From contig NZ_KB893314.1 of the NCBI RefSeq assembly GCF_000374045.1, positions 124,001 to 188,000 on the forward strand: 64,000 nucleotides of DNA, written 5' to 3'. A program made the position numbers and the translations under genes. The notes below the pieces were generated by a model. The model made no database searches. It saw nothing but the letters and a program-made list of their open reading frames with translations, and had not been told where the DNA came from. Below are positions 20,268-63,540 of this stretch, piece by piece. This DNA is from Segetibacter koreensis DSM 18137. Lineage in GTDB: Bacteria > Bacteroidota > Bacteroidia > Chitinophagales > Chitinophagaceae. The stretch's first letter is position 1. Every line of letters starts with the position of its first letter.

Positions 20268-20336
20268 ATTTTTTATGTAGTCAGCCCTTTGTAATTCTAT
20301 TCAGCATCGTTGTGTCACTCACTTGTACCGCAACGC
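20268..20336 (+). repeat. Dispersed intergenic repeat, copy 1 (nuoC/nuoD spacer)
   Basis: A T-rich start, GTAGTCAGC, then TTCAGCATCGTTGTGTCACT and ACTTGTAC: the shared pattern seen at four other sites in this window. It fills almost the whole spacer between nuoC and nuoD, antisense to the genes, and ends 2 bp from the nuoC stop codon. Confidence 0.75.
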
Positions 20337-20338
20337 TT

Positions 20339-20926
20339 TTATAACCAGGTGTTATCCTTGTCAGCTTCACTAATTGTTTTTGGAGCATCTTGTGCTCTTT
20401 CATCACCAAAATCGTCACTGCCGCCCCTGCCAAACATTTCATCATCCTTGTCAATTCTGCTTTGGTCTTCAAGCGGGTATTCCTTGCGCATTGGGAAATA
20501 ATCCATCTCATCAACGTTTAAAATACGCTTTAAATTAGGATGACCGATGAAATTAACGCCGTAAAAATCATAGGTCTCTCTTTCCATCCAGTTTGCAGCT
20601 TCAAAAAGTTTTGTAGCAGTAAAAACATCCGGCTGTTGAATAGGGAGATACACTTTAAATCTTATGCGGACATTCTCAACAAGATTGTGCAGGTGATATA
20701 CCACAGCCAGTTCCTCCCCTGTCCTATCAGGAAAATGAACTGCACATAAATCAGTAAGAAAGGTAAACTGCAATTCTGCATCATCATATAAAAACTGCAT
20801 TACTTTCAGGTTCAAATCGCGGGGGGCAGAAAAGGTAAGCATTCCGTAGGGCTCTTCAAAGCCATCCAGTACATCTCCAAATTTTTCCTGTAAGCGTTGT
20901 TTAATCAGTTCGTTATTTAACGGCAT
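20339..20926 (-). CDS. nuoC: NADH-quinone oxidoreductase subunit C
   Basis: This 195-aa protein of the 30-kDa subunit family has the signature 'ERETYDFYGVNFIGHPNLKR' followed by 'MDYFPMRKEYPLED'. It is a structural subunit of the hydrophilic arm next to NuoD. The C-terminal tail (about residues 165-195) is acidic and of low conservation. The 168-bp spacer upstream to nuoB is AT-rich with repeated 'GAAAATTTGAAAA'-like runs and no ORF. Confidence 0.95.
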   Translation of the reverse strand: MPLNNELIKQRLQEKFGDVLDGFEEPYGMLTFSAPRDLNLKVMQFLYDDAELQFTFLTDLCAVHFPDRTGEELAVVYHLHNLVENVRIRFKVYLPIQQPDVFTATKLFEAANWMERETYDFYGVNFIGHPNLKRILNVDEMDYFPMRKEYPLEDQSRIDKDDEMFGRGGSDDFGDERAQDAPKTISEADKDNTWL

Positions 20927-21094
20927 TTATTATATTAATTTGAAAATGAAGTAATCTGAAAATTTGAAAACCTATTGATTTTTGTAAACTTTCAAATTCT
21001 TGCATTTATTCATTTCTGACAGTTAAATTAAAAAATCTCAATCCCGGTTTTAAAACCTTTCAAACTATTCAAGTGTCCAACCTGACATGTCTTT

Positions 21095-21658
21095 CTATTG
21101 TATTCCGTAGCTCTCCATCAACCCCTTGTAGGTTTCACCATTTCTGCGCCGCAGGCTTTCATTATGCACTAAATCCTGAATACGTAAAACGCCATCTATA
21201 ATAGCTTCAGGTCGTGGAGGACAACCTGGTACATACACATCTACCGGAACTACCTGGTCAATACCCTGTAGTACGCTGTAGGAGTCAAATATACCACCGG
21301 AGCAGGCACATGCACCCACTGCCATTACCCACCTTGGCTCTGCCATTTGCAGGTAAACTTGTTTTACAATCGGAGCCATTTTTTTTGCTATGGTGCCCAT
21401 AACCATTAATAAATCACACTGGCGCGGCGAAAAACCTAATCTCTCACTTCCAAAACGTGACATATCATAGTGTGAACCCATCGTTGCCATAAACTCGATG
21501 CCGCAACAACTTGTAGCAAATGGTAAAGGCCATATTGAATTTTTTCGGGCGATACCTACAATCTTCTCAAAAGAAGTAGCCATAAACCCTTCTCCCATAT
21601 AACTTTCAGGAGCTTCTAACTCCTTAACCTGTGTGTGAAATCTTACTGGACGACCCAT
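21095..21658 (-). CDS. nuoB: NADH-quinone oxidoreductase subunit B (N2 cluster)
   Basis: This 187-aa protein holds the [4Fe-4S] N2 ligands: the tandem Cys in 'FATSCCGIEFMATMGSHYD', then 'GACACSGGIFDSY' and 'VPGCPPRPEAIIDG'. N2 donates electrons to quinone. It is the first nuo gene present. Upstream lies a 308-bp region with no ORF instead of the expected nuoA. Start is the ATG at 21658. Confidence 0.97.
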   Translation of the reverse strand: MGRPVRFHTQVKELEAPESYMGEGFMATSFEKIVGIARKNSIWPLPFATSCCGIEFMATMGSHYDMSRFGSERLGFSPRQCDLLMVMGTIAKKMAPIVKQVYLQMAEPRWVMAVGACACSGGIFDSYSVLQGIDQVVPVDVYVPGCPPRPEAIIDGVLRIQDLVHNESLRRRNGETYKGLMESYGIQ

Positions 21659-21750
21659 AATTTATCTGATTTTATTCATCCTCAAATAACTACAATACGA
21701 ATAATAATCTCATAAAAAGCAGAAGCCTTATGATGGCTGTAATTTAATGT

Positions 21751-21783
21751 CAAAAGTAATACAAGTGTGTCAATTACAGTCAA
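21751..21783 (-). promoter_or_regulatory. Candidate promoter of the nuo operon
   Basis: On the minus strand there is TACTTTTG (21751-21758), a match to the Bacteroidota -7 consensus TAnnTTTG. A TTG lies 22 bp upstream (21781-21783). It is about 90 bp before the nuoB ATG, in the 308-bp region 21659-21966. Nothing else was recognised in that region, and the long stop-rich AT stretch argues against a hidden nuoA. Confidence 0.4.
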
Positions 21784-21966
21784 ATGATTTAAACAGAATC
21801 TATCAGTTTCTATAATAAAACAACAATTAGTTACTTATATAGTTATTTAAAAACGGTTAATAATTATAATAAACGAAAAAACGGCAGAAAACTTTTAATA
21901 GTAAAAAAAATAATATTATAACTTTCTCATAAATTATTATACCAGCAAAATTTCGTTTACGGCGGA

Positions 21967-22545
21967 TTATAATGTATTTACGAGTTCATCTATTTCACTG
22001 GCATCAATTATACGATCTACCACTACGTCTGCGATAGCATGTTGGGGCATATATGCAACTTTAGCCGTAACAGGATTTTGCACAATCACTATTCCGTCAT
22101 GTTTTTTTACTACTTTCAAACCTTCTGTACCGTCAGCACTTGCGCCCGAAAGCAACAGGCAAACTAATTCAGGACCGAACGCTTCTGCTGCGGTTTCAAA
22201 AGTAACATCTATACTGGGCCTGCTATAATTTACCTTTTCTGAATAATCAAGTGACAAGGTTCCATCTTTTTCTACAAGCAAATGATAATCTGCGGGAGCA
22301 ACATAAATAATACCGGGTGTAAGAATATCTTTTTCTTCTGCCTCTTTCACCGGGAGCGTGGTTTTAGAAGCCAAAAGATCAGTCAAAGTTGAGTCAAAAC
22401 TATTTTTTCTATGAAGTACAATAATAATGGGAAATGATAAACCTGGCCGCAAAGATGGAAGTAGCATGAGTATGACATCAAGACTACCGGCAGAACCGCC
22501 GATAATAAGAAGACTGCAATGATGCCTTATGCTACTTTTCTCCAT
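21967..22545 (-). CDS. cheB: CheB-type methylesterase, catalytic domain only
   Basis: The 192-aa protein consists of the CheB catalytic domain alone. The catalytic triad can be placed: Ser18 in GGSAGS, His45 in IVLHRKNS and Asp138 in LLSGASADGTEG. No receiver domain is present, so regulation may come from a separate receiver such as the single-domain protein encoded in the same operon (inferred). By family it demethylates or deamidates receptor glutamates. No chemoreceptor gene is nearby. It overlaps the cheR end by 19 bp, which suggests translational coupling. Confidence 0.92.
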   Translation of the reverse strand: MEKSSIRHHCSLLIIGGSAGSLDVILMLLPSLRPGLSFPIIIVLHRKNSFDSTLTDLLASKTTLPVKEAEEKDILTPGIIYVAPADYHLLVEKDGTLSLDYSEKVNYSRPSIDVTFETAAEAFGPELVCLLLSGASADGTEGLKVVKKHDGIVIVQNPVTAKVAYMPQHAIADVVVDRIIDASEIDELVNTL

Positions 22546-23348
22546 ATTTTTTCCTTTCCAACCTGGTTATACTTTGATGAAAGAGAAGAAAAGCGCAGCG
22601 TTTCTTTATTGCCTAGCGCTAAAAAACCTAATGGTTCCAGACTTTGGTCGAAAAGGGTGAATACTTTCTGCTGCAAATTATGATCAAAATAAATTAAAAC
22701 ATTCCTACATAAAATTAATTGAAATTCATTAAAAGAGCGATCTGATACCAGGTTATGGGTGGCAAATATTACTTTAGCCCGCAAATCCTCATTAAACTTT
22801 ACATGATTGTATTTGGCAGAGTAGTAGGAGGAAAAATCGCGGATACCGCCTGAAAGAATGTAGTTTTCCGAATATTGTTTCATTTGGCTTAAAGGAAAGA
22901 TGCCTGCCATTGCTTTTTTTATGACATCAGGATTTAAATCGGTAGCATATAGCAAGGATTTTTGTAACAAGTTTGCCTCCTGCAGCATTATGGCCATAGA
23001 ATATACTTCTTCACCAGTTGAGCAGCCTGCGTGCCATATACGAATGAGAGGATAAGTAGACAGCACCGGCAAAATCTCAAGGCGAAGAACTTTGTAAAAA
23101 AAAGGATCACGAAACATTTCTGTTACATTCACCGTAATTTCTTCAACAAACCTTTTTAAATATTCGGGGCTGGCTCTTACTTTATAGCGAAACTCAGCAA
23201 AGCTTGGAAACTTATCTATCTGGAGCAACCGGTTTACCCGCCTTTTTAAAGAAGCGCGGGAGTAATCTGTGAAATCATATCCATATACCTCCAGCAAATC
23301 ATTTAGTAAAATATCTAATTCATCGTCGTCAATTGTTCCTAATTCCAC
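22527..23348 (-). CDS. cheR: CheR-type protein-glutamate methyltransferase
   Basis: The 273-aa protein has the N-terminal helical CheR domain (to about residue 70) and a SAM-dependent methyltransferase domain. Visible motifs are NVTEMFRDP (74-82) and the SAM loop IWHAGCSTGEEVYSMAI (104-120), with 'LILCRNVLIYFD' later. It uses a GTG start at 23348; no ATG fits better and the spacing to the upstream receiver gene (11 bp) is tight. By family it methylates glutamates of chemoreceptor-like proteins. Here it is paired with hybrid kinases, so the target is unclear. Confidence 0.92.
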   Translation of the reverse strand: MELGTIDDDELDILLNDLLEVYGYDFTDYSRASLKRRVNRLLQIDKFPSFAEFRYKVRASPEYLKRFVEEITVNVTEMFRDPFFYKVLRLEILPVLSTYPLIRIWHAGCSTGEEVYSMAIMLQEANLLQKSLLYATDLNPDVIKKAMAGIFPLSQMKQYSENYILSGGIRDFSSYYSAKYNHVKFNEDLRAKVIFATHNLVSDRSFNEFQLILCRNVLIYFDHNLQQKVFTLFDQSLEPLGFLALGNKETLRFSSLSSKYNQVGKEKIWRKVA

Positions 23349-23359
23349 AGATACTATTT

Positions 23360-23731
23360 TTAAAATTTGTCCAATTTCTTAAGCAATTCATCTACATTAA
23401 CAGGTTTAGAAATATAATCATCGGCCCCGGCCTTCAGGCATTTCTCCTTGTCACCAGTCATAGCTTGTGCAGTCACTGCAATTACTGTTAAGAACGACAA
23501 TTTATTATTATTTCTAATTCTGTTTATTGCTTCATAACCATCCATTTCTGGCATCATCATGTCCATTAATACAATCTTTATACCTGAATTCTGTAACAGC
23601 AGGTCTATTCCTTCCCGGGCAGTTAAAGATGTATAACAAGTATACCCCTGTGAAACAAGGGTGGCTTTTAAAGCAAAAATGTTTCGACTATCGTCATCTA
23701 TTATAAGAACTTGTTTTTGCAATTCATTCAT
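23360..23731 (-). CDS. Single-domain response regulator (CheY-like receiver)
   Basis: The 123-aa protein is one receiver domain: acidic pocket IDDD (11-14), phospho-acceptor Asp57 in VLMDMMMPEMDGY, and the conserved Lys in 'ADDYISKPVNVDEL'. It has no output domain. The start is the ATG at 23731. It is very similar in sequence to the third receiver of the hybrid kinase encoded upstream (both have 'VTAQAMTGD/VTAKAMTGD' and 'YISKPV'), which suggests duplication or shared phosphotransfer. It lies 11 bp before cheR. Confidence 0.93.
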   Translation of the reverse strand: MNELQKQVLIIDDDSRNIFALKATLVSQGYTCYTSLTAREGIDLLLQNSGIKIVLMDMMMPEMDGYEAINRIRNNNKLSFLTVIAVTAQAMTGDKEKCLKAGADDYISKPVNVDELLKKLDKF

Positions 23732-23825
23732 TTCCAGCAATTGGATTAATTAAACTGTTTCATTACTGGCTTCCGTTTCCGAAAACCCCAACGGGTATTT
23801 GTGACCATATGGAACCGTAGCAGGT

Positions 23826-36596: not shown

Positions 36597-37652
36597 ATGC
36601 CACGCACAGATAACTTTCAAAAGTTTGTAAAACAAAAGAAAGCAGGTACGGTTAAAGAAGAAGTCCGTCAACAAAAAAAGAAAGAAAAAAAAGAAAAAGC
36701 TGCAGCAATTGAAGCTCACTTCGAAAGAAAAAGAGCAGAAAGAGCCCAAAGGCAGCCCCTGACAAGTTCAGGCATCGGCAAAACCGCAAGGCCAAATAAA
36801 TATCCGAAAAGCGAAGCAGAACAGCCTGTAGCCAGAACCGGAAAACCCAATAAGTATCCTAAAAAAATAACGGCGGAAACAGATGTAAAAAGTTCCACGG
36901 GCAGAGTTTCAACAGAACAAATGCCGTTAAACAAGTACATTGCTCATGGCGGCTTGTGTTCGCGTCGCGATGCAGCCCAGTTAGTGAAAGACGGAAAAGT
37001 AACGGTAAATGGCACAGTCGTAACGGAGCCGGGTACAAAGATCAGCGAAAATGACGTAGTAAAAGTTGGCGCCAAAAAAGTTACTCCCAGCAACAATTTA
37101 GTTTACATATTGCTTAATAAGCCAAAAGACTTTATTACTACATCAGAAGACCCCCAGGGTCGCAAAACTGTTCTTGATCTTGTTCGCACCGCAACTGATG
37201 AAAGAGTGTATCCCGTCGGCCGTTTAGACAGAAATACTTCCGGAGTTTTATTGCTAACCAACGATGGCGAACTCGCACAGAAATTGTCGCATCCAAGCCA
37301 CGAGGTGAAAAAGGTATACGAAGTAAAACTTGATAGGGCTCTTACCAAATCTGATATGGATACAATTGCTTCCGGCATTACGTTGGAAGATGGTTTTGTA
37401 GCACCAGACGTTATTGCCTACGCAGACGCAAAAGACAAAAGCGTAATTGGTGTCGAAATTCACAGTGGACGTAACCGTATCGTCCGCCGTATGTTTGAAC
37501 ACTTGAAGTACGATGTAAAGGGCCTTGACCGCGTTATGTTTGCCGGGCTTACAAAAAAAGATGTTCAGCGAGGCAGGTGGCGGTTCTTAAAAGATAAGGA
37601 AATACGATTGCTTAAATTTATGAATCAATCTTTCGTAAAAGCCAAGGACTAA
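36597..37652 (+). CDS. rluB: 23S rRNA pseudouridine synthase, RsuA/RluB family
   Basis: The 351-aa protein has an S4 RNA-binding domain (about 105-160, 'LNKYIAHGGLCSRRDAAQLV') and a pseudouridine synthase core with the catalytic-Asp motif GRLDRNTSGVLLLTNDG near 208. The C-terminal part reads 'GRNRIVRRMFEHLKYDVKGL'. An unusual 100-residue N-terminal Lys/Arg-rich extension with 'ARPNKYPK' and 'GKPNKYPK' repeats precedes the S4 domain and probably binds RNA. It modifies large-subunit rRNA by family. It is followed by an RluA-family gene in the same direction across a repeat. Confidence 0.92.
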   Translation: MPRTDNFQKFVKQKKAGTVKEEVRQQKKKEKKEKAAAIEAHFERKRAERAQRQPLTSSGIGKTARPNKYPKSEAEQPVARTGKPNKYPKKITAETDVKSSTGRVSTEQMPLNKYIAHGGLCSRRDAAQLVKDGKVTVNGTVVTEPGTKISENDVVKVGAKKVTPSNNLVYILLNKPKDFITTSEDPQGRKTVLDLVRTATDERVYPVGRLDRNTSGVLLLTNDGELAQKLSHPSHEVKKVYEVKLDRALTKSDMDTIASGITLEDGFVAPDVIAYADAKDKSVIGVEIHSGRNRIVRRMFEHLKYDVKGLDRVMFAGLTKKDVQRGRWRFLKDKEIRLLKFMNQSFVKAKD

Positions 37653-37663
37653 CACAAACATTC

Positions 37664-37729
37664 TTTTTGGTAACCAGCTAAGGCTTTCTGTTCAGTCATC
37701 GTTGCGTCGCACACTTGTGCAGCAACAAT
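37664..37729 (+). repeat. Dispersed intergenic repeat, copy 2 (rluB/rluA spacer)
   Basis: TTTTTGGTAACCAGCTAAGG, then TTCAGTCATCGTTGCGTCGC and ACACTTGTGC. Shares the core CATCGTTGCGTCGCACACTT with copy 3 exactly. It occupies most of the 107-bp spacer between two pseudouridine synthase genes. Confidence 0.8.
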
Positions 37730-37759
37730 TCTAATTCATTTTATTTTTCATTTCCTCAT

Positions 37760-38482
37760 ATGAAATTTGATATTATTTTCGAAAACGAATATTTTATTGC
37801 TATAAACAAACCGGCAGGTTTATTATCAATACCAGACCGGTTTGGAAAAGACCCTTCGCTTAAAAGCCTCTTGCAGGAGCAACTTGGTAAAATTTACACT
37901 GTTCACCGCCTCGATAAAGACACAAGCGGCCTTATCATTTTTGCTAAAGATGAGATAACACACAAAGATTTATCTCAGAAATTTGAAGGGCGTGATGTAG
38001 AAAAGTACTACCTCGGCATCGTAAACGGTACCATGATGAACCGCGAAGGGACAATTGATGTTCCCATTATGGAAGCGCCTGGCAAATCCACTTTAATGAT
38101 TACTAACAAAAAAGGGAAGCCATCAGTTACAGATTATAAAGTACTTGAAGAGTTTGGATTATATTCGTGGGTAGAGTTTCAAATTCATACGGGCAGAACT
38201 CACCAGATACGTGTACATGCAAAATACCTCGGCAACTCTATTGTTTGTGATGAGTTATATGGAGACGGACAACCGATATTACTATCATCAATAAAAAGAA
38301 AATTTAAATTAAGCAAAAATGAACTGGAAGAACGTCCAATTCTTAGCCGTCTTGCCCTTCATTCCTATCAATTGAAATTTACTGATGCCGGGGGAAATAA
38401 ACATGAATTGGAAGCTCCATTATCAAAAGATTTAAGGGCTTTGTTGACACAATTAAGAAAAAACGTTAGAACGACTATTTAA
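37760..38482 (+). CDS. RluA-family pseudouridine synthase
   Basis: The 240-aa protein has the RluA catalytic motif HRLDKDTSGLIIFAKDE near residue 50, plus 'GRTHQIRVHAKYLGNSIVCD' and a C-terminal 'LHSYQLKF'. No S4 domain is present. It isomerises uridine in rRNA or tRNA; the exact site cannot be told. I set the start at the ATG at 37760; the longer frame to 37715 would translate part of the dispersed repeat. It follows rluB by 107 bp and is closed by a strong terminator. Confidence 0.9.
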   Translation: MKFDIIFENEYFIAINKPAGLLSIPDRFGKDPSLKSLLQEQLGKIYTVHRLDKDTSGLIIFAKDEITHKDLSQKFEGRDVEKYYLGIVNGTMMNREGTIDVPIMEAPGKSTLMITNKKGKPSVTDYKVLEEFGLYSWVEFQIHTGRTHQIRVHAKYLGNSIVCDELYGDGQPILLSSIKRKFKLSKNELEERPILSRLALHSYQLKFTDAGGNKHELEAPLSKDLRALLTQLRKNVRTTI

Positions 38483-42489: not shown

Positions 42490-45400
42490 CTAAAACCAGC
42501 TTCTTATCCAGGTTTCGCTGGCTTTTCCCCGCAATCTTTTATAGCGCCTGCTTACCTCTGCCCTATGGCGCATCATAGTAATAACCATTAGCGGGATAAA
42601 TAATAATGTAAATGGCGGAATACCTAACATGCTAACCCAGGTTCCTCCATATTGTCTGCGCATCGGACGTCTCAAGCGCTCTGCTATCAGGTACATTGAA
42701 GGCACAATAACAAGTGTCATGAAAAAGGCAAATGTCAAACCGAAAATAATGGTCCACGCTAACGGTTTCCAAAAACTGGCACTTGCTCCGCCAAAGAAAA
42801 TATGTGGGTTCAACTCTGCGAACATAGCTACAAAGTCGATGTTAAAACCGATGCCCAGGGGTATTAGTGCTAGTATAGCTGCCAAAGCGGTTAATAGTAC
42901 CGGAATGATACGCGTTTTACCTGCCTGTACTACAGCTTCTCTTGTCTTAAGTCCACGGCCTCTCAGTTCGTCAGCAAATTCAATCACAAGAATACCATTT
43001 TTAACGACGATGCCTGCCAACCCTATCACACCGACACCTGTCATTACCACCGATACAGTCATGCCAGTAAGTGCAAAACCAATAAGTACACCTATGATAC
43101 TAAATACTATTTCTGTAAGGATAATCACGGGCTTGCTTACAGAATTAAATTGTAAAACCAGTACAAACAAAATAATCATTAAAGCAAAAAGTAACGCTTT
43201 TGTAAGAAATGCACCTGTTTCTGCCTGTTGCGCTCCCTCACCTGTCTGGGTTATGGAAACATCATCACCTACTTTTTTAAAATCATCTATAGCATCTTTT
43301 AGTTTGGCATTCACATCAGTTGGGGTGTAACCACTCAATACATTTGAATATAAAGTAATGGTACGTTTGTTACTTTTGTGCTTTATGCTACCATAAGTGC
43401 TTGTATAGTCTACGTGAACGAGAGAACTTATTGGTATCTGTTTTATTCCGCCTGTCATTTCACGAAATACGATCCGCATATTTAGCAGGTCTCCCAGGCT
43501 TTTGCGCTGCAGCTCAAGATTACGCAACTGTATTTTATACTCATCTTCCCCTTCCTTTATTTTAGATACTTCCCTTCCAAACAAAGCAGTACGAAGCGCC
43601 ATACCAATTTGTGCAGTAGAGACACCTTCAATCATTGCCCTTTCCCGATCTATTGTGAGGGTAATTTCGGGATTGGTTAAATCCACGTCAAGTTTTAAAT
43701 CTTCAACCCCTGCTATTTTTAATGTATCGAGATAATTTTTAAGGTCAAGTGCTGTTTTTGTCAGGTGCTCAAAGTCTTCGCTGGTTACTTCAATATTTAT
43801 CTGAGGATCAGTAGGCGGACCACTTGCCTCCTGGTCTACCGAAATGGCTGCACCGGGAATACCTTTCATAACAGCTCGAATAGAATCAAGGTAAGGAGCC
43901 GATGAAACACCATGCCGTTTTTCAAACTCTACAAAAGAAACTTGTATACGGCCTAATTCAGGCCGCGTACTTCTATCTCCGCTACTGGGATCAGACGCAC
44001 CAATAGCTACGTTTGATATTACACTTTCTACAATAGGATTTGTTTTTCCGTTTTCAATTCCCAATACATGGTTTACTCTTGCTTCTAACCTTCTTGTAAC
44101 AGAGTCTGTGTAGTCTACGCTTGTTCCCACAGGCAACTTCAGATACACATACACCTGGTTGGGATCACCTTTTGGAAAAAACACTATTGGAACTTTTCGT
44201 ATCGCAAAAATGAAAATTGATAAGAAGAACAAACCTACTGTGCCTAATAATAACCAAACCGGTCTCCATCCATGCAATGCCCACCTCAACAGATTTTCGT
44301 AATGACCCATGATCCATGGCAGCGCATTATTTTGAAATTTGTGAATCAAATCGTCTATCACATACCTGTTTAAAACCATCAGAAGCGCAAATAAAATAAG
44401 CAGGTTACCTCCAAAGAAGAATCCGAAAAGGTCTAGCAGAATGCCAACACCTAAAAGACCAAGAAAAGCCGGGCTTTTAAACACGGCTGATTTTGCAGGT
44501 TTGGTTTCTCCTTCCGGATGATTCATAAAATCAACTGCAAAAACAGGATTCATGATAAATGCAACTACCAACGATGCAGCCAATGTAAATATGAGCATAG
44601 TAGGCAGGTAAATCATAAACTTGCCTATAATACCCGGCCAGAACAATAAAGGAAAGAAAGGTGCAAGTGTGGTCAACGTACCTGCAAGAACGGGGACAAA
44701 CACTTCACCCGCTGCCATTCTTGCCGAAATTTTTGATGACAAACGCCCCGCACCCTGCACAAATATGCGATGCGTATTTTCAATAACAACAATAGCATCA
44801 TCCACTATAATTCCTAGGCCAAACAACAATGCAAACAGTACAATAAAGTTTAAAGTAACATTAGAGCCTGTTATTATTTCTGCCATTGGCAAAAACAAAA
44901 ATGCAACGAACATACTCAACGGAACTGACAAGGCTACAAAAAAAGCATTTGTGACGCCCATAAAAAACATAAGGATAAGCAGCACCAGTACAAAACCAAT
45001 AACAATTGAGTTAACGAGGTCATTAAAAGAAGTTCTTGTTGCCTTACTGAGGTCGCTTGTAATAACTACTTTCAGGTTTTCAGGCAAAGTAGTCCCCTTC
45101 ATTTCTTCTACCGTCTTTTTAACATTATCAGAGGTTTCAATGAGGTTTTCTCCGGCTCGTTTAATGATATTTAGCGTAACGACATTTTTACCATCTAACC
45201 GAGCATAGCTTTCTCTTTCTTTTACTGTATCTTTTATCTCTGCTATGTCTTTGAGATAAATAGGCATTCCTGACGTGTTGCGAACAATTATTTTCTGAAT
45301 GTCAAAGACATTTTTAAACTGTCCTTTTACCTGTAGTGTCCGTTTGGTATTTCCTACTTCGAGCAACCCACCCGATATGTCTGCATTTTCTCGAGAGACA

Positions 45401-46059
45401 GCATTGGCAATATCATCAAAAGTTATATTAGATGACTGCATTTTGTAGTTGTCTACATTTATCTGGAACTCCCTTTCCGGAGCACCAACAATATCAACAC
45501 GGGTAATTTGAGACAATTCTTCGATCCTGTCCTGGATATCATCGGCAAACTTCTTCAGTTTTACCATATCATAATCGCCACTTATGTTTACGTACATAAT
45601 GGGTATATCACTCAGGTTCACTTCCAATACACTAGGTTGTTCCGTGAGATCAGTAGGCAGATCTGTTTTTGCCTTATCTACAGCGTCTTTTACCTTTTGT
45701 AACGCCACATCCTTTTCAACTTCTGTATCAAACTCTACTACTACCGCGGAGTAATCCTGCAGAGAGGTACTGGTAAGCTTATTTATTTTTGCGCCGGTAA
45801 TTCCTTTTAATTGTTTTTCAATCGGCTGCGTTACAAGATTTTCAATATCTCGTGGTGAATTACCAACATAAATGGTTTGAACATATATTGTTGGTATTAC
45901 AATATCAGGATACTGCTCTTTGGGAAGCGTAACAAATTGAGTAACACCAATCACCGATACAAAAATGACCAGCAGGTAAATGGAAGTTTTATTTTTAATG
46001 GACCACGTAGTTGGGCCAAATTCTTTAAACTTTTCTTTAAAATTTTCAAATGCACTCAT
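42490..46059 (-). CDS. RND-family multidrug/solute efflux permease
   Basis: The 1189-aa inner-membrane transporter has the usual two halves of six TM helices and two large periplasmic loops. The TM4 charge motif is in 'GLGIIVDDAIVVIENTHR'. The N-terminal periplasmic start 'PKEQYPDIVIPTIYVQTIYV' is typical. Compared with AcrB (about 1050 aa) it has an extra membrane insert at about 515-570 ('LLGVGILLDLFGFFFGGNLL') and an extra C-terminal hydrophobic tail, both frequent in Bacteroidota RND pumps. It works with the adaptor and outer-membrane factor encoded upstream. Substrate unknown. Confidence 0.94.
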   Translation of the reverse strand: MSAFENFKEKFKEFGPTTWSIKNKTSIYLLVIFVSVIGVTQFVTLPKEQYPDIVIPTIYVQTIYVGNSPRDIENLVTQPIEKQLKGITGAKINKLTSTSLQDYSAVVVEFDTEVEKDVALQKVKDAVDKAKTDLPTDLTEQPSVLEVNLSDIPIMYVNISGDYDMVKLKKFADDIQDRIEELSQITRVDIVGAPEREFQINVDNYKMQSSNITFDDIANAVSRENADISGGLLEVGNTKRTLQVKGQFKNVFDIQKIIVRNTSGMPIYLKDIAEIKDTVKERESYARLDGKNVVTLNIIKRAGENLIETSDNVKKTVEEMKGTTLPENLKVVITSDLSKATRTSFNDLVNSIVIGFVLVLLILMFFMGVTNAFFVALSVPLSMFVAFLFLPMAEIITGSNVTLNFIVLFALLFGLGIIVDDAIVVIENTHRIFVQGAGRLSSKISARMAAGEVFVPVLAGTLTTLAPFFPLLFWPGIIGKFMIYLPTMLIFTLAASLVVAFIMNPVFAVDFMNHPEGETKPAKSAVFKSPAFLGLLGVGILLDLFGFFFGGNLLILFALLMVLNRYVIDDLIHKFQNNALPWIMGHYENLLRWALHGWRPVWLLLGTVGLFFLSIFIFAIRKVPIVFFPKGDPNQVYVYLKLPVGTSVDYTDSVTRRLEARVNHVLGIENGKTNPIVESVISNVAIGASDPSSGDRSTRPELGRIQVSFVEFEKRHGVSSAPYLDSIRAVMKGIPGAAISVDQEASGPPTDPQINIEVTSEDFEHLTKTALDLKNYLDTLKIAGVEDLKLDVDLTNPEITLTIDRERAMIEGVSTAQIGMALRTALFGREVSKIKEGEDEYKIQLRNLELQRKSLGDLLNMRIVFREMTGGIKQIPISSLVHVDYTSTYGSIKHKSNKRTITLYSNVLSGYTPTDVNAKLKDAIDDFKKVGDDVSITQTGEGAQQAETGAFLTKALLFALMIILFVLVLQFNSVSKPVIILTEIVFSIIGVLIGFALTGMTVSVVMTGVGVIGLAGIVVKNGILVIEFADELRGRGLKTREAVVQAGKTRIIPVLLTALAAILALIPLGIGFNIDFVAMFAELNPHIFFGGASASFWKPLAWTIIFGLTFAFFMTLVIVPSMYLIAERLRRPMRRQYGGTWVSMLGIPPFTLLFIPLMVITMMRHRAEVSRRYKRLRGKASETWIRSWF

Positions 46060-46110
46060 TGAAGTCAGTTTTTACCCTAAGCACCAAAGTACTTAGTGGT
46101 GGTTGTTTTA

Positions 46111-46180
46111 TTTTTTGGTAGTCAGCTGAAGTTCCTTTTATCATCATCGTTGCGTCGCACACTTATACTTCTGCTCGTTA
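46111..46180 (+). repeat. Dispersed intergenic repeat, copy 3 (MFP/RND spacer)
   Basis: TTTTTTGGTAGTCAGCTGAA, then TTTTATCATCATCGTTGCGT and CGCACACTTATAC. The core CATCGTTGCGTCGCACACTT is identical to copy 2. It fills half of the 147-bp spacer between adaptor and permease genes of one operon, and lies antisense to the genes. Confidence 0.8.
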
Positions 46181-46206
46181 TTCACCCATACTACTACTAT
46201 TATTTT

Positions 46207-47406
46207 TTATGCGCTTGTTGTTATAGCCTGTCCGTCGAACAGGTTCTGAAAACCTTCGGTTATAATAATGTCACCTGTTTTCAGTCCGCTTTTAACTTCA
46301 AGTCTTTCTCCATAAAGCTCACCTACCTGTATTTGCCTTTTTTGTGCAACCATATTATTTCCTTGTTTTACCGCAACCAAAACAAATTTGCCTTGTTCAT
46401 CTGTTTGTAAAACATTTACAGGAACAGTCATAGCATTTGGTACACTATAATCCTGTATTCTAACCATTGCGGTAAGATTAGGCTTTAAACTTTTATCATT
46501 AGGAATTTTAGCCTCTGCTATAAAACCTCTCGATGTAGCACTGATAGACTGACTAATTAAAGAAATAGTAGAATTGTACGATTTATTAATATCAGGAACT
46601 GAAATAATCACAGGAGTTCCCTTTGAAACACGTGCTAAATAGTTTTCAGGGATATCTGTAACTACTTTAAGATTACTCGTATTTACAATTTTAATTCCTG
46701 CAGCCGGGCCGCCTGTAAACATTTCCCCGACATGAATATTTACTTCATCCGCAACTCCTGAAACATTGCTTATAACGGAAGTAGTACTTAACTGCTCTTC
46801 TGCTGATTTTATATTTTCCTGTTGGGTTTTCAGTTGATTTTCAAGAACTTCTACGTTTGTTTTAGCTTGAAGCAACTGTACTTCAGTGCCTATGTGCTGA
46901 TCCCATAAATTTTTTGTACGCTCATAAACGCTTTTCGCGAGTTCAAGCTGGTTTTTTGTTGCGGCCAAACCTTGTCTTGCAGCAACAACATTCTGCCGAA
47001 TAATTGCATCATCAAGCTTTAAAAGCAATTGACCTTTTTTTACATATTGGCCTTCTTTCACATAAACTGCTTTTACCTGTCCACCCGTGCCACGTGGGCT
47101 TACATAAGAAATATTTTCAGCATCTACCCTACCCTGCAAGTCTATGTAATGTGTGAACTTTTCATCTTTTATTGTATCTAGTACTACAAGTTTCGCCTTC
47201 TTTACATTAGCACCTGCTGTATCCAGCTCGCTTATTTCGAGTTCCAGCTTTCTAATTTCTGCGGTGGCTTGTGCTTCCTCTTTTTTAAGCTTTTCAAGCT
47301 TGTCCTTCTTTTCCTGTAAGCCGTTATTAGTACTGTTATTTCCGCCACACGACACTATAAAAAATGCTATGGCAGCTAGAAAAGAAACTTTTATAAATGA
47401 ATTCAT
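46207..47406 (-). CDS. RND efflux periplasmic adaptor (MFP/HlyD family), lipoprotein
   Basis: The 399-aa protein starts at the ATG at 47406 with a lipoprotein signal ('LAAIAFFIVSCGGNN'). Domains in order are a coiled coil (about 24-65), barrel-sandwich (lipoyl-like) halves ('VSPRGTGGQVKAVYVKEGQY', 'VSGVADEVNIHVGEMF') around a long hairpin, and beta-barrel and membrane-proximal domains. It bridges the RND pump and TolC. Longer frames to 47535 start within the tolC gene and are rejected. It follows tolC by 35 bp. Confidence 0.94.
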   Translation of the reverse strand: MNSFIKVSFLAAIAFFIVSCGGNNSTNNGLQEKKDKLEKLKKEEAQATAEIRKLELEISELDTAGANVKKAKLVVLDTIKDEKFTHYIDLQGRVDAENISYVSPRGTGGQVKAVYVKEGQYVKKGQLLLKLDDAIIRQNVVAARQGLAATKNQLELAKSVYERTKNLWDQHIGTEVQLLQAKTNVEVLENQLKTQQENIKSAEEQLSTTSVISNVSGVADEVNIHVGEMFTGGPAAGIKIVNTSNLKVVTDIPENYLARVSKGTPVIISVPDINKSYNSTISLISQSISATSRGFIAEAKIPNDKSLKPNLTAMVRIQDYSVPNAMTVPVNVLQTDEQGKFVLVAVKQGNNMVAQKRQIQVGELYGERLEVKSGLKTGDIIITEGFQNLFDGQAITTSA

Positions 47407-47441
47407 ATAAAGGGTAATTTTGATATTAAACGTAATAATCC

Positions 47442-48833
47442 TTAATTTAATTTTCCCAAAGAAGACTGGTATGAAATTTTTGCCACAATCGCATTGTACA
47501 ACCCGTTGAAATAATTTGACTGAGCCGTCTGCCAATCAGTATCAGCCTGCAAAACTTCAAAGCTGGAACCAATACCCGCTTCAAACTTCTTCTTGGTTGT
47601 ATTATAAACATTTTCTGCAAGCTGTACGTTTCGTTGTTGTGCATCCAGGTTAAGCAAGGCGTTTTTAAGGCTTTCTTTTGATGCCGTTTGCTGCAGATCT
47701 ATCACCTGTTTTAAATTCTCGATATTATTATCAACTTTTCGAAGATTAAATTTCTCTTGTTGTATTTTGTACTTTCGCTGGAAACCGTCAAAAATTGGTA
47801 CACTCAGATTCAATCCTATTAACGAGTTTTTTAACCAAAATGTACTTTTATCTGTTATAAAGTTCTGTCCCTGGCCCTGTGCCGTATAACTTAACATAGC
47901 TGACAAAGTGGGAATATATTCCAGCTTATATCTTTTAACGTTCAACTCCTGTAAACGGCGCGAATAACCTATCGCCTGTATCTCTTTGCGGTCCTCGTAT
48001 CTAAAATTATCATCCAAAACATTTCGCTTAACATCTTCATTAGTAAGACTTTCTTTTAAAATGACCGAATCGTTTTGAGAAATACCCAAAGCATATTTAA
48101 GACCAGCATAAGCAAGTTTTACAGAATTGTTTAAAACACTTTGCGATGTCTGCAAATTGGTCAATTGCACCTGCACTTTATCAAGGTCAAGTTTTTCGGC
48201 AAACCCATTTACCAACATGATGGAATCATCATGATACAACTTTTGTAACCTTTTGATACCAGAGTCTAAAAATTCTGATTGCTTTTGTGCGATGAGAATA
48301 GCATAATATCTCCTGTACGCAGAGTCTTTGACTCCTTCTTTTATAAGTTCGAGATTAGCCTTAGATAGATTTAAAGCAGTTTGCCGGGCTTGCAACCCTA
48401 CAAAAACGTCGGGCTGAAATAGTAATTGGGAAAGCGTACCTCCAATGCTCGTGTTCCAGGGCTGAAAAAAGCTAATAGCCTGCAATTTTGGGTCAGGTAT
48501 CTTAGTGTTTTGCGGTATTAATTTTTCGTTTTTTAAAACGGAATATATACCTGCTTCTGACGCATCAGGAAATAATATTTTAGGCAATTGTAAATAACGG
48601 TTAAGGGAAGCTGTACCAGAAACCTGGGGTAAGGCCTGCCCAGTAATTTCGTTATTTTGCGCTTGCTGAATCTGGATGTCGAGCGCTGCGTTTTTTACCG
48701 CTGTCACATTATCAAACGCTAACTCTACCGCCTCCTTCACCGTTAGCTCGTACTTTTTCTGTGCAAAAGAAAAATGTACAATAGCGAGAAACAAAAGGGT
48801 AAACATCCATCGTAACTGTATCTGTTTACTCAT
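47442..48833 (-). CDS. tolC: TolC-family outer-membrane efflux channel
   Basis: The 463-aa protein has a signal peptide (MFTLLFLAIVHFSFAQ) and two OEP repeats of long helices and beta-strands. Motifs include 'GGTLSQLLFQPDVFVGLQAR', 'SLIGLNLSVPIFDGFQRKYK' and 'VLQADTDWQTAQSNYF' near the C-terminus. It forms the outer-membrane exit duct of the tripartite pump. It starts 4 bp after the tetR stop, so it is coupled to the regulator. Confidence 0.93.
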   Translation of the reverse strand: MSKQIQLRWMFTLLFLAIVHFSFAQKKYELTVKEAVELAFDNVTAVKNAALDIQIQQAQNNEITGQALPQVSGTASLNRYLQLPKILFPDASEAGIYSVLKNEKLIPQNTKIPDPKLQAISFFQPWNTSIGGTLSQLLFQPDVFVGLQARQTALNLSKANLELIKEGVKDSAYRRYYAILIAQKQSEFLDSGIKRLQKLYHDDSIMLVNGFAEKLDLDKVQVQLTNLQTSQSVLNNSVKLAYAGLKYALGISQNDSVILKESLTNEDVKRNVLDDNFRYEDRKEIQAIGYSRRLQELNVKRYKLEYIPTLSAMLSYTAQGQGQNFITDKSTFWLKNSLIGLNLSVPIFDGFQRKYKIQQEKFNLRKVDNNIENLKQVIDLQQTASKESLKNALLNLDAQQRNVQLAENVYNTTKKKFEAGIGSSFEVLQADTDWQTAQSNYFNGLYNAIVAKISYQSSLGKLN

Positions 48834-58820: not shown

Positions 58821-58941
58821 AGTGCAAGTTTTTAAGATGGTATAAGGTAAATAATGTGTGTATAAATAATAAAAATGAAAGTATAATTAACCCGATATAA
58901 GAGAGGAAATTTCAACAGAAGGATTTCAAAACGTATTAGGT

Positions 58942-58985: not shown

Positions 58986-59005
58986 TAACTATTCTTTACT
59001 ATCTT

Positions 59006-59794: not shown

Positions 59795-59813
59795 GTGGTT
59801 TATAAGAAAAAGC

Positions 59814-59833
59814 AATCCCGCTTATGCGGGATT
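59814..59833 (-). terminator. Intra-cluster hairpin (attenuator-like)
   Basis: Perfect 8-bp stem AATCCCGC-TTAT-GCGGGATT between the two TPM genes, followed on the minus strand by TTGCTTTTTC. It may reduce expression of the distal gene. Confidence 0.6.
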
Positions 59834-59837
59834 TACT

Positions 59838-60296
59838 TTAATTTCCAAAAATTATTTCATCCGGGAGCTCATTTTTATCCTCTTTTTCATAAGGAAATTC
59901 TTTCTGCAATGCCAAACCGATATCTCTGATAGCATGACAAATACCGCCAGTGTAATTGTCTTTTGTAAAATGTGCAATTATTTTTTTGACTTCCTCGGTC
60001 CAATACTGGCGACCTAATCGCTGATAAATACCTTCGTCTGCAAATAAAGCCAACTGATGATCATCCATTGCCATATACAACAAAACAGCATTCCGGTCTT
60101 TTGTTTGTTCCATTTTAAGACTGAAAAATATTTCTTTTGCCCTATCTACAGCATCAACATATGCGCATTTGCTTTCTACAAAAAACCTTATCTCTCCGCT
60201 TGTATTTTTCTCGGCTTCCTGTATTGCTTCTACCATAAGAAACTGTTGTTCTTTGGTAAAAAACTCTCTTTTATTCTTTGAAGGAAAAAGTGACAA
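59838..60296 (-). CDS. Short TPM-domain protein
   Basis: The 152-aa protein is essentially one TPM domain ('EAEKNTSGEIRFFVESKCAY', 'RNAVLLYMAMDDHQLALFAD'). It has no signal peptide or TM segment, so it should be cytoplasmic. The start is a TTG (60296), giving MSLFPSKNKREFF; no in-frame ATG fits the conserved domain start. It starts 18 bp after lemA, a common arrangement in this phylum. Confidence 0.85.
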   Translation of the reverse strand: MSLFPSKNKREFFTKEQQFLMVEAIQEAEKNTSGEIRFFVESKCAYVDAVDRAKEIFFSLKMEQTKDRNAVLLYMAMDDHQLALFADEGIYQRLGRQYWTEEVKKIIAHFTKDNYTGGICHAIRDIGLALQKEFPYEKEDKNELPDEIIFGN

Positions 60297-60314
60297 TGCT
60301 AAGAATTATTAGTT

Positions 60315-60905
60315 TTAAAATTTTACTTCCGGAGCCTTTTCAGATCCTGCTTCTGCCGCAAATCCCTGTCTTTGTTTAAAGCCCATCATACCTGCAAAAA
60401 TGTTTGTAGGAAAAGTACGCACTTTTGTATTATAAGTTTGAACAGCATCATTAAAATCGTTTCTTGCTGTCTTTATCCTGTTTTCAGTTCCCTCCAATTG
60501 AGCCTGCAAGCCACGGAAAGCATCGTTAGCACGAAGATTAGGATAGGCCTCTGCAACTGCCAGCAAACGCCCTAAGCTTTGTGATAATTGCCCTTGGGCT
60601 GCCTGAAACTGCTGAATTTTTTCAGGTGTAAGATTATTTGGATCTACTTTTACCTGTGTAGCGGACGCCCTTGCATTGATTACATTAGTCAAAGTTGTTT
60701 GTTCAAAGTTAGCTTCACCCTTAACTGTATTAACAAGGTTAGGAATAAGGTCTGCGCGACGCTGGTAATCACTTTGAACCTTGTTCCAGGAATTTTTCAC
60801 TGCTTCATCCTGTTGAACCAAGCTGTTATAACTGCCACAACCACAGCCTCCTAATATTAATACAGCAGCCAAAATAACTATAAGTGTTAGATTTTTTGAA
60901 TTCAT
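60315..60905 (-). CDS. lemA: LemA family protein
   Basis: The 196-aa protein has an N-terminal lipoprotein or membrane segment ('LTLIVILAAVLILGGCGCGS') and the LemA helical domain ('RRADLIPNLVNTVKGEANFE', 'VAEAYPNLRANDAFRGLQAQ'). The family is mostly membrane-associated with the C-terminal helices exposed; function not established. It leads the cluster with two TPM proteins, suggesting a shared envelope role. Confidence 0.92.
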   Translation of the reverse strand: MNSKNLTLIVILAAVLILGGCGCGSYNSLVQQDEAVKNSWNKVQSDYQRRADLIPNLVNTVKGEANFEQTTLTNVINARASATQVKVDPNNLTPEKIQQFQAAQGQLSQSLGRLLAVAEAYPNLRANDAFRGLQAQLEGTENRIKTARNDFNDAVQTYNTKVRTFPTNIFAGMMGFKQRQGFAAEAGSEKAPEVKF

Positions 60906-61005
60906 TGTCGTAATTGATTTTTTTAAATTTTAATTAAAAATCATTTTAAATGACTTTTCTAAGCATTGCAAAAAAGCGGCCACCTATAAAAACTGCCTTT
61001 ATGTC

Positions 61006-62202
61006 TTATTGCTTTATCGCGGCAATACCAGGTAATTCTTTTCCTTCAAAATATTCAAGCATTGCTCCACCGCCGGTACTAACATAACTAACTTTGTCAG
61101 CAAGTCCGAATTGGTTTACTGCAGCGACACTGTCACCACCACCTACCAGTGAAAATGCACCTTTTGAAGTAGCTTCAACAATATAATCCGCTATAGCTTT
61201 TGTTCCTTTTTTAAATTTTTCCATCTCAAAAACACCCATTGGTCCATTCCACAAAATGGTCCTGCTTTGCAAAATAACTTGTCCGAAGTCCTTTATCGCC
61301 TGGTCTCCGATATCAAGTCCCATCCATCCTTTTTCAATATTATCGTTGCTTTCTAATTTGGTATTTGCGTTAGCATCAAATTTATCCGCAACTATGCTGT
61401 CTTCAGGTAAATGAAAAGATACACCTTTTGCTTTCGCTTTTGCCAGCAGATCGTTAGCAAGGTCCAACTTATCTTCCTCGCACAAGCTGCTTCCTATTTC
61501 TTTGCCCTGTGCTTTCAAAAACGTATATGCCATTCCTCCACCTATAATGATATTATCAGCTCTTTCAAGCAGATTTTCAATAATTAAAATTTTGTCGCTC
61601 ACTTTAGCACCGCCTAAAATGGCAGTAAAAGGCTTTTCATTACTGTGTAAAACTTTCTCAGCACTACTCACTTCATTTTCCATTAATAGCCCGAACATCT
61701 TTTTATCACCTGGAAAAAATTTTGCAATGATAGCCGTAGAAGCATGAGCACGATGTGCGGTTCCAAATGCATCATTCACATATACATCTCCCAGTTTGCT
61801 TAACTTTTCTGCAAACGCTTCATCACCTTTTTCTTCCTGCTTATAAAAACGAAGATTTTCGAGCAGCAATACTTCCCCCGGTTGTAACGATGCAGCCTTT
61901 TGTACGGCTTCTTCACCTATACAATCATTTGCAAATAAAACTTTGGTACCGCCTAACAATTTTTCCAAATGAGGAACTAGGTGACGTAATGAATATTTAT
62001 CAGTTGGGCCGTCTTTAGGGCGACCAAGATGGCTCATAAGAATAACACTGCCACCGTCGTTTAAAATCTTTTGGATAGTTGGGATGGCAGCGCGCATCCT
62101 GTTATCATCCGTTATTTCAAACTTATCGTTTAACGGCACGTTGAAGTCGACCCGAATAAGGGCTTTTTGTCCGGCGAAGTTATGGTTTTGAAAGTTGCTC
62201 AT
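61006..62202 (-). CDS. pgk: Phosphoglycerate kinase
   Basis: The 398-aa protein has the N-terminal '[13 protein letters not shown]' and '[12 protein letters not shown]' substrate-binding motifs and the C-terminal nucleotide motif '[15 protein letters not shown]'. It catalyses 1,3-bisphosphoglycerate + ADP to 3-phosphoglycerate + ATP. The ATG at 62202 gives the normal length; the longer frame to 62286 would translate a repeat element. It follows gap by 193 bp, almost entirely repeats. Confidence 0.96.
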
Positions 62203-62232
62203 TTTGTTAGAATTAATTGTATAAATAAAAAA

Positions 62233-62316
62233 GCCGCAAAGAACGAAATATACGCAAAGAAATCGCAAAGTAAAACCTTTGCGCAACTCTGCGATGTCCT
62301 CGCGCTCTTTGCGGTC
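62233..62316. repeat. TTTGCG-type imperfect palindromic repeat in the pgk leader
   Basis: The outer arms GCCGCAAAGA and TCTTTGCGGT are inverted, with inner GCAAAG/CTTTGC pairs. The structure looks like a small non-coding repeat (MITE-like) inserted ahead of pgk. No second copy was seen in this window. Confidence 0.55.
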
Positions 62317-62337
62317 AGTATAATTAAGAACTTACAG

Positions 62338-62394
62338 TCGAAGTAAGTGACACAACGATGCTGAATAGAATTGCATCCGTCCACTCACAAAAAC
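62338..62394 (-). repeat. Dispersed intergenic repeat, copy 4 (gap/pgk spacer), reversed
   Basis: On the minus strand TTCTATTCAGCATCGTTGTG, then TCACTTACTTCGAC. It shares CTATTCAGCATCGTTGTGTC with copy 1 exactly. It begins 1 bp past the gap stop codon and lies in the gap/pgk spacer. Confidence 0.75.
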
Positions 62395-62395
62395 A

Positions 62396-63409
62396 TTATT
62401 TACTAATAAGACCTGCAAAATACCTTACGGTACGTACCAATTGGCTTACATAGCTCATTTCATTGTCGTACCAACTTACGGTTTTAACAAGTTGTCTGTC
62501 ACCTGCAGTAACTACTTTGGTTTGAGAAGCATCAAACAGTGAACCATAAGTAATACCAATGACATCACTGCTTACAATTTCGTCTTCTGTATAGCCAAAA
62601 CTTTCGTTTTTTGCATTTCTCATTGCAGTATTTACTTCTTCCACTGTCACCTGCTTTTCGAGAATAGTTGTCAATTCTGTTAGCGAACCGGTAATAACAG
62701 GAACACGCTGTGCACTACCGTCTAGTTTGCCTTTCAACTCAGGAAGAACAAGGCCTATTGCCTTTGCAGCACCAGTGCTGTTTGGCACAATGTTTTGAGC
62801 CGCAGCCCTTGCCCGACGCAAATCTCCTTTTGGATGTGGAGCATCTAAAGTATTCTGGTCGTTGGTGTAAGCGTGAATTGTAGTCATGAGACCCATTACA
62901 ATTTTAAACTGGTCATTCATAACCTTTGCCATTGGCGCCAAACAGTTGGTTGTACATGATGCACAACTGATGATTGTTTCACTACCATCAAGTATTTCAT
63001 GGTTTACATTAAATACTACGGTTTTAAGATCGCCAGTCGCAGGGGCTGAAATTACAACACGCTTTGCACCTGCTTTCAGGTGAGCTTCAGCTTTTGCTTT
63101 ATCAGTAAAGAAACCGGTACTTTCAATAACGACATCTACCTGGTGCTCGCCCCATGGAATTTGAGAAGGGTCTTTTTGAGCATATATTTTTACTTCATCA
63201 CCATTAACAACTATAGAGTTTTCGGTGCTTTTCACGTCACCCTCGAAGCGGCCTTGTGCACTATCATATTTTAATAAGTGAGCCAGTACTTTAGGGCTGG
63301 TAAGGTCGTTGATAGCTACAACATCTATACCTTCCATATTATAAATCTGGCGAAATACCAAACGGCCGATACGTCCAAAGCCATTAATGGCGACTTTAAC
63401 TGTACTCAT
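62396..63409 (-). CDS. gap: Glyceraldehyde-3-phosphate dehydrogenase, type I
   Basis: The 337-aa protein has the NAD-binding start '[17 protein letters not shown]' and the catalytic Cys in '[17 protein letters not shown]'. It also has '[20 protein letters not shown]', and '[20 protein letters not shown]' at the C-terminus. It converts glyceraldehyde-3-phosphate to 1,3-bisphosphoglycerate. With pgk next it forms a glycolytic pair. Confidence 0.97.
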
Positions 63410-63440
63410 ATTTTTATTTTTTCTGTTTTAAAAAACTTTG

Positions 63441-63448
63441 CAAAATTA
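63441..63448 (-). promoter_or_regulatory. Candidate -7 promoter element of gap
   Basis: Minus-strand TAATTTTG (exact TAnnTTTG), 31 bp before the gap ATG. No clear TTG -33 element was seen at the right distance. Confidence 0.4.
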
Positions 63449-63474
63449 CAAGGAAAGAAGAGAACTTTAGCTTT

Positions 63475-63540
63475 ATTTTTTTGTAATCAACTTTCATTCC
63501 ATCCCTCAGCTTCTCTTGCGTCGCACTCTTGTACATCAAA
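63475..63540 (+). repeat. Dispersed intergenic repeat, copy 5 (upstream of gap)
   Basis: TTTTTTTGTAATCAACTTTC, then CTTCTCTTGCGTCGCACTCT and TGTACATC. This is the most diverged copy; it keeps CTTGCGTCGCACTCTTGTAC. It lies between the gap promoter region and tRNA-Glu. Confidence 0.65.

Follow-up and report, generated by a model that had tools for sequence, protein, structure and literature searches.

A roughly 80-base DNA repeat at gene edges in Segetibacter koreensis and related Chitinophagaceae

What is the short sequence that recurs in five spacers of a 64,000-nucleotide stretch of the Segetibacter koreensis DSM 18137 genome (contig NZ_KB893314.1, positions 124,001 to 188,000; called the window below)? 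An initial annotation, made from the letters alone, described a dispersed intergenic repeat and suggested a non-autonomous or REP-like element with a possible regulatory or mRNA-processing role. We found that the five copies belong to a roughly 80-base, previously undescribed gene-edge DNA repeat. Our tentative preference, held with slightly less than even confidence, is that the copies are putative DNA sites for a Chitinophagaceae protein, kept by selection at gene edges. No published description of the element was found in the open-licence literature covered, which is weak evidence of its novelty.

Anatomy and abundance of the repeat

A sequence check placed all five copies where the initial annotation had put them and verified the words that it reported as shared, CATCGTTGCGTCGCACACTT in copies 2 and 3 and CTATTCAGCATCGTTGTGTC in copies 1 and 4; its neighbour assignments (nuoC/nuoD, rluB-like/rluA-like, MFP/RND and gap/pgk) were correct according to NCBIfam matches. 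The sequence-only R1 profile, made from 33 genomic copies, detected five matches in the window (E 4.3e-17 to 7.2e-12; next best E = 0.11), partly by construction since all five window copies are among the 33. Five 20-mers in the window have at least 17 of 20 core matches, and none reaches even 16 of 20 in six first-order Markov windows. The profile matches (Table 1) slightly overrun the limits first given, and the T-rich start noted there is the outer, gene-facing end of the element. The Rfam gathering scan of the window and four loci gave only a tRNA, in agreement with the earlier remark that the repeat was not recognised as a named family.

Described on the strand opposite to that of the initial annotation, the element consists of a loose GCTSAATAR box, a 20-bp core, a variable linker of about 33 bp and GGTNACCAAAAAA. 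Statistics for S. koreensis rest on 148 of its 150 listed places, where the core is of the type GTACAAGWGTGCGACGCAAC in 78 copies, GTACAAGTGAGTGACACAAC in 57 and a third type, GATGAACGAAATGCGACGCAAC, in 13. Left of the core there is a weaker GCTSAATARAGA box; to the right of the core come GATGYTGAATAG or a similar word, a stretch that varies among copies and GGTNACC, then the A run at a near-constant distance, the A-tract spacing being nearly fixed at about 33 bp (three helical turns).

Mutual information was calculated over 264 copies of two species, the 148 of S. koreensis and 116 of Segetibacter aerophilus NBRC 106135 (genome G009), and core positions 9, 11 and 15 (counted from 0) were found to covary. 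Positions 11 and 15 are complementary in 98% of the copies, resulting in a 7-bp dyad, GCGACGC or GTGACAC, and one of the two full core states is present in 248 of the 264. The only clearly complementary covarying pair sits within this dyad; no long-range complementary pair was detected among the 45 strongest couplings, and RNAalifold gave 0 pairs across 116 aligned copies.

Within a genome, the median identity between copies is 0.80 (S. koreensis) and 0.75 (G009) for the core, 0.38 and 0.36 for the linker, and 0.30 for the left 40 bp. None of the 264 compared copies is near-identical to another, the best linker pair reaching 0.84, and there is no burst of recent copies. At two S. koreensis places, 82 and 141, the sequences flanking the core on either side are 0.78 alike, perhaps as part of a larger duplication. 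A general coding role was rejected, the three codon positions of the core being about equally fixed among copies.

The R1 profile matches at least 150 places in the S. koreensis genome, suggesting 150 copies or somewhat more; the outcome named initially as a refutation, a genome search with no more than these few copies, did not occur. In this genome there are 99 exact instances of TGCGACGCAA, vs one of the reversed word, and 16 of the 99 fall outside the 150 listed places. No copy above 22 bits was detected in 20 further 20-kb stretches of the genome, fewer than the density predicts; these were picked with the match list known and gauge completeness only (few strong copies were missed), not being a random sample. 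In G009, 116 copies were detected at E <=0.01 in 0.8 Mb, taken as two contiguous blocks regardless of matches, which extrapolates to about 850.

The profile survey of relatives (39 genomes, E <=0.001) detected matches in all nine other Segetibacter genomes (at least 110 in eight, only 10 in G007), in 9 of the 14 genomes of other Chitinophagaceae (at least 13 in each of the seven genomes G013, G016 and G018-G022, a single match in G014 and in G015, no match in G010-G012, G017 and G023), and in none of 15 genomes belonging to the remaining families of that order. The repeat is common in Segetibacter and patchy in the rest of the Chitinophagaceae. An exact-pattern scan of named genomes found at least 116 stretches, which come from Segetibacter, Foetidibacter, Pinibacter, Ferruginibacter and genomes labelled only Chitinophagaceae, Sphingobacteriales or Bacteroidota. 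The complete genome of a second genus, G013, has at least 150 copies; both strands are represented in 16 of its 17 bins of 300 kb, the remaining bin having 3 of 3 on the plus strand, and replication polarity was rejected on account of this mixing.

Viral contigs carry the exact core as well, the GCG type in 11 stretches, several of which are the same phage, and the GTG type in 10, on putative phage contigs. At least two GCG-type contigs are genuine phage, L184 (tail sheath, tape measure, head protease) and L178 (primase/helicase). The phage elements fill 73-bp and 91-bp spacers between co-directional genes, the former within the head-tail cluster of one phage and the latter in another, and in one phage gene the element directly precedes the start codon.

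Two side observations concern these phages. Compared by eye in an aligned stretch, the related phages L178 (4184) and L180 (1705) agree around the element and on its right but show no match on its left, and the element may mark a boundary of mosaicism. The phage open reading frames (ORFs) at L182 (11066) and L185 (6895) extend into or through the core, by our reading in the same frame.

Placement at gene edges and age of the sites

Genes called with a simple ORF caller cover 85% of the 0.8 Mb sampled from G009, and 110 of the 115 classed copies are intergenic, with five in predicted genes (one further copy had no neighbour). The intergenic copies point along both neighbours in 30 cases and against both in 39, and lie between converging genes in 23 and diverging genes in 18; the spacers of at least 60 bp in the same DNA comprise 293 co-directional, 73 converging and 89 diverging. 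The A-rich end lies a median of 46 bp from the gene edge vs 119 bp for the other end, and in 77 of 110 copies it is this other end that lies farther away (p 3e-5). This bias is strongest in copies opposing both genes (34/39) and absent in those along both (16/30). The A end faces stop codons at a median of 31.5 bp, and on the GTAC side all start codons (57 cases) are at least 44 bp away. The orientation of the copies is therefore tied to gene edges more than to the direction in which the genes are transcribed.

Clear profile matches were counted at the sites orthologous to those of the window across ten Segetibacter genomes, S. koreensis included. The gap/pgk site is occupied in seven of ten (also G005, G008, G009, G006, G001 and G004), with one more match, in G002, being weak; the site upstream of gap in six of ten (also G005, G009, G006, G003 and G001); the nuoC/nuoD site in five of ten (also G006, G008, G009 and G001); the rluB/rluA site in five of nine (also G009, G005, G006 and G001); and the MFP/RND site in five of ten (also G006, G008, G009 and G001, whose MFP is only 48% identical and perhaps a paralogue), plus one split copy in G005. 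Orientation relative to the genes is identical at all occupied sites. The initial annotation had considered that conservation at orthologous sites in all relatives would point to ordinary leaders; the sites do recur, but only in five to seven of the nine or ten Segetibacter genomes.

The age of such sites was gauged between S. koreensis and G009, whose identity at fourfold sites is 0.396 (1094/2763), with saturation at 0.279. Because fourfold sites are near saturation, neutral spacer DNA should be hardly recognisable, as the flanks are. Fourteen S. koreensis copies have a neighbour orthologue in the G009 sample, and for nine of them G009 carries a copy in the matching position and orientation (seven judged by the A-end gene, two by the other neighbour only), vs about 1.15 shared sites expected (p 2e-7, from 110 copies and 1336 gene ends); of the remaining five, two have a copy of opposite orientation in the same spacer and three have none. 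As far as the fourfold sites gauge it, old sites have kept the core better than expected under neutrality. Linker likeness is 0.43 at shared sites vs 0.40 at different sites (0.59 for nuoC/nuoD, 0.34 for gap/pgk), suggesting, weakly overall, descent rather than re-insertion at some sites.

Selected sites, mobile debris and other possible explanations

The conserved core in scrambled surroundings suggests that the element probably does a job rather than merely hopping. A putative Chitinophagaceae DNA-binding protein would bind the dyad core as a dimer, the A-tract would help to bend or wrap the DNA, and the job would be done on DNA and not on RNA, possibly in marking or insulating gene ends, in chromosome organisation or in broad regulation. 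The features of a DNA-site family are present (a conserved word with a dyad, free orientation, conserved sites). A selected site, which we ranked above a passive mobile element, accounts for the constrained cores, the fixed sites, the intergenic confinement and the use by phages.

Several results weigh against selection at these sites. Detection requires an intact core, and so conserved sites are favoured among those counted. Of 18 sites shared by S. koreensis and G009, 13 have the same core type in both species and five do not. Simple site-by-site selection does not explain such switches, since three linked positions separate the states and intermediates are few; they may have arisen by short-tract conversion from another copy. 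Seen from G009, only 7 of 70 copies match a site among the 148 of S. koreensis (the 70 are from the 73 best G009 copies; three were left out, two of which, C5:55811 and C1:42488, are shared sites). Turnover is therefore large, and many sites have been lost in S. koreensis or gained in G009, which has several times more copies. Copy number varies widely among congeners: 10 matches in G007, at least 150 in S. koreensis, 116 per 0.8 Mb in G009. With a rougher ORF caller, 128 of the 148 S. koreensis copies are intergenic and 20 overlap ORFs, nine of these ORFs being shorter than 280 nt. The A-end neighbours have no common function among their 25 commonest Pfam families of 223 (125 of 142 neighbour proteins were scanned; the 17 left out are mostly short ones or a duplicate). 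No binding protein for the element was found.

A common regulon was rejected; the commonest neighbour families are HlyD adaptors (6) and ACR_tran (4), which would fit an MFP/RND site copied along with its operon.

An old non-autonomous mobile element, ERIC- or MITE-like, that transposed to places near gene ends in an ancestor of the family and is now inherited vertically, functionless or with incidental functions, is quite possible, if not the explanation that we would choose. The copies are dispersed, AT-rich and largely intergenic, number from 10 to hundreds among congeners and are carried by phages; for ERIC, the review PMC10969869 cites 30 to 711 copies. Some copies are also paired in the manner of terminal inverted repeats: all 10 neighbouring pairs closer than 500 bp among the 150 listed for G013 have their A ends outward, and in S. 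koreensis an inverted partner lies within 500 bp on the GTAC side in 15 of 148 copies and on the A side in 2, with no partner in the same orientation. Such outward pairs fit two terminal repeats of one unit, but are also expected if each of two copies turns its A end to its own gene, and 131 of the 148 copies have no partner within 500 bp, being mostly single units. Further points against passive debris are the lack of near-identical pairs among the copies of either species, 148 and 116 respectively, and the conservation of the core at old sites. The two readings are nevertheless compatible, and a once-spreading element may have been taken over as a site. The earlier description is right as to a dispersed, largely intergenic family, and the likeness to REP is not supported; mobility is neither shown nor excluded.

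Possible partners and forms of a mobile element were considered one by one. The two-ended MITE as the general form was rejected, with only 17 of 148 S. koreensis copies having an inverted partner within 500 bp. The Y1/RAYT transposase as a partner was rejected because the S. koreensis genome has none (0 matches to PF01797, the control matching in 5 of 14 genomes). No transposase is among the 25 commonest Pfam families of the A-end neighbours, which cover all families with at least three members; a rare autonomous copy may exist elsewhere. No target duplication was apparent by eye, where A/T-rich ends would hide short ones and the relatives are too distant to provide an empty site.

The Uma2 nuclease was considered as a mobility gene on account of Uma2 genes in the nuoC/nuoD spacer of relatives: a Uma2-like (PF05685) gene was seen by eye between nuoC and nuoD in four relatives (L299, L300, L302 and L306), with Uma2 matches at three of these (G008, G005 and G007) and a clear element beside the gene in two (L299, L300). 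It was ruled out, as S. koreensis and G018-G021 have elements without Uma2 and G024 has 22 Uma2 matches without elements. As a residue, 7 of 17 Segetibacter Uma2 loci, taken from 65 matches in the genus, have an element within about 150 bp, and all 8 elements concerned turn the GTAC end to Uma2; some of these loci may be orthologous, and we regard the association as no more than a lead. A GxxExxY-like ORF was also seen by eye in the MFP/RND spacer of G005 and G007 (L521, L523).

An RNA element acting in the transcript, such as a processing site, a structure in the 3' untranslated region or a riboswitch-like leader, is improbable. The A side lies near stop codons at the distance given above and sometimes just before starts (nuoD, the phage gene), as an RNA element could, but the copies take both orientations relative to transcription, no Rfam model matched the element in the window or the four loci scanned, and neither the predicted folding nor the strongest couplings revealed pairing of the kind expected. 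The mRNA-processing role suggested initially is disfavoured, as the copies do not orient with transcription.

A promoter or promoter-proximal regulatory site is still less probable. The element does lie upstream of gap and in phage intergenic spacers, and TTTG is mildly enriched 20-40 bp left of the core on the element strand (88 per 20-bp bin vs about 50 in most), but neither strand has a TAnnTTTG peak outside the element, the sole peak (14 per 20-bp bin, opposite strand) lying on the element's own T-run, and 23 of 110 copies are between converging genes. A DNA uptake signal that has two dialects and owes its spread to biased transformation would explain the two core types, the A/T tract at a near-fixed distance and the lack of a clear orientation preference, but is hardly credible, since uptake words accumulate in genes too and bare cores do not, 99 of 102 exact cores in the G009 sample being intergenic and only two being genic outside elements (reversed-word controls 1 and 1).

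Returning to a selected site, a broader proposal, which we regard as unlikely, is that hundreds of oriented gene-edge elements of about 80 bp serve the Chitinophagaceae and some of their phages as DNA-level boundary marks. Their reader would be a protein confined to the clade, and its two core specificities, GCGACGC and GTGACAC, would be interchangeable, one taking the place of the other at a given chromosomal site. Such repeats are usually explained as old mobile debris; here the 20-bp core is kept, and the linkers and silent sites are nearly randomised. The intergenic placement and the preferred gene-facing end, in host and phage alike, provide a testable case for a genome-wide DNA signal and its reader, and the two core states at orthologous sites are a natural probe for finding the reader protein in a large, little-studied family.

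Window copies and comparison with known repeat families

The copies of the window and their neighbours are collected in Table 1. The gap gene is flanked by copies 4 and 5 with their A ends inward (window 62326-63545, contig C1 186326-187545), and the same two-copy bracket around gap was observed in G005, G009, G006 and G001. Copy 5 is flanked by gap on one side and, on the other, by a tRNA gene of the opposite strand. Copy 2 has the exact TGCGACGCAA at 37702-37711; the listed rluA ORF opens at a TTG within this copy, and the first in-frame ATG, at 37760, is probably the true start. Copy 3 is overlapped by a 104-aa ORF at 46096-46410, an overlap that we regard as mechanical.

Table 1. Repeat copies and neighbouring genes in the window
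Feature	Position	Strand	Description	Match
Copy 1	20262..20339	-	GTG-type core, nuoC/nuoD spacer; A-rich end toward nuoD start	57.6 bits, E 6.4e-17
Copy 2	37656..37730	-	GCG-type core, rluB-like/rluA-like spacer; A-rich end toward rluB-like stop	58.1 bits, E 4.3e-17
Copy 3	46103..46176	-	GCG-type core, MFP/RND spacer; A-rich end toward RND start	56.2 bits, E 1.8e-16
Copy 4	62326..62406	+	GTG-type core, gap/pgk spacer; A-rich end toward gap stop	41.4 bits, E 7.2e-12
Copy 5	63467..63545	-	GCG-type core, upstream of gap; A-rich end toward gap start	45.4 bits, E 4.0e-13
nuoD	19033..20262	-		TIGR01962, E 4.4e-131
nuoC	20339..20926	-		TIGR01961, E 1.5e-34
RluB/RluF-like pseudouridine synthase	36597..37652	+		TIGR00093, E 8.6e-43
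RluA-family pseudouridine synthase	37715..38482	+		TIGR00005, E 3.5e-58
RND permease	42490..46059	-		NF033617, E 1.3e-155
RND periplasmic adaptor (MFP)	46207..47535	-		TIGR01730, E 2.4e-56
pgk	61006..62286	-	Listed ORF start TTG 62286; first in-frame ATG 62202	NF010569, E 5e-160
gap (type I GAPDH)	62396..63409	-	Between copies 4 and 5	TIGR01534, E 1.2e-133
tRNA gene	63650..63721	+	Neighbour of copy 5	Rfam RF00005, 64.5 bits

Other repeats were seen beside the element. In the MFP/RND spacer of G005 (L521 1209-1476), the element is interrupted after GTACAAGTGTGCGAC by an insert starting with CCTTCGACAAACTCAGGGT, which we take to be a REP-like word of other genomes. At the G013 loci L489 and L496, words such as CCCCGTAGGAGCC/GGCTCCGTAGGAGCC and GGCGCTGCAT recur between paired arms and are perhaps another repeat family. 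A second repeat, CGTCATTGCGAGGAG...CAATGACG, forms an inverted pair between two element copies in S. koreensis (L188 1649-1748 on contig C1, L237 1655-1759 on contig C14) and resembles the CGTC-tagged REP superfamily, which PMC3733652 records in Bacteroidetes.

Among known families, ERIC is nearest in behaviour, and the element has ERIC-like traits, being intergenic, kept at orthologous sites and variable in copy number. ERIC, like the Segetibacter element, is not known to have an autonomous parent. It is a long imperfect palindrome; the Segetibacter element differs in being asymmetric, in having no predicted fold and in its constrained 20-bp core. Both families are intergenic, with tens to hundreds of copies in a taxon-dependent number (for ERIC, see PMC10969869).

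Compared with the MITE BrickBuilt of Porphyromonas gingivalis, the element is likewise intergenic and AT-rich, with some inverted pairs, but it consists mostly of single units, with no target duplication seen, no near-identical copies and no parent transposase found. The uptake words of Neisseria (DUS) and the Pasteurellaceae (USS) have a short constrained core, dialects and a nearby A/T tract, all of which the element has too, but its cores are confined to intergenic elements.

The REPs of the GTAG and CGTC superfamilies are described in PMC3733652 as high-copy extragenic palindromes with stems of 5-13 bp and a GTAG or CGTC tag, the CGTC REPs being recorded in Bacteroidetes. The Segetibacter element is similarly high-copy, extragenic and present in several genomes of one clade; it differs in having no stem beyond the 7-bp dyad, in a core that begins with GTAC instead of a GTAG or CGTC tag outside a stem, and in that no Y1 transposase was found. 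The Caulobacter CIR, reported in PMC10969869 as a long, strictly intergenic repeat tied by name to a DNA methylation enzyme, CcrM, resembles the element as an intergenic repeat.

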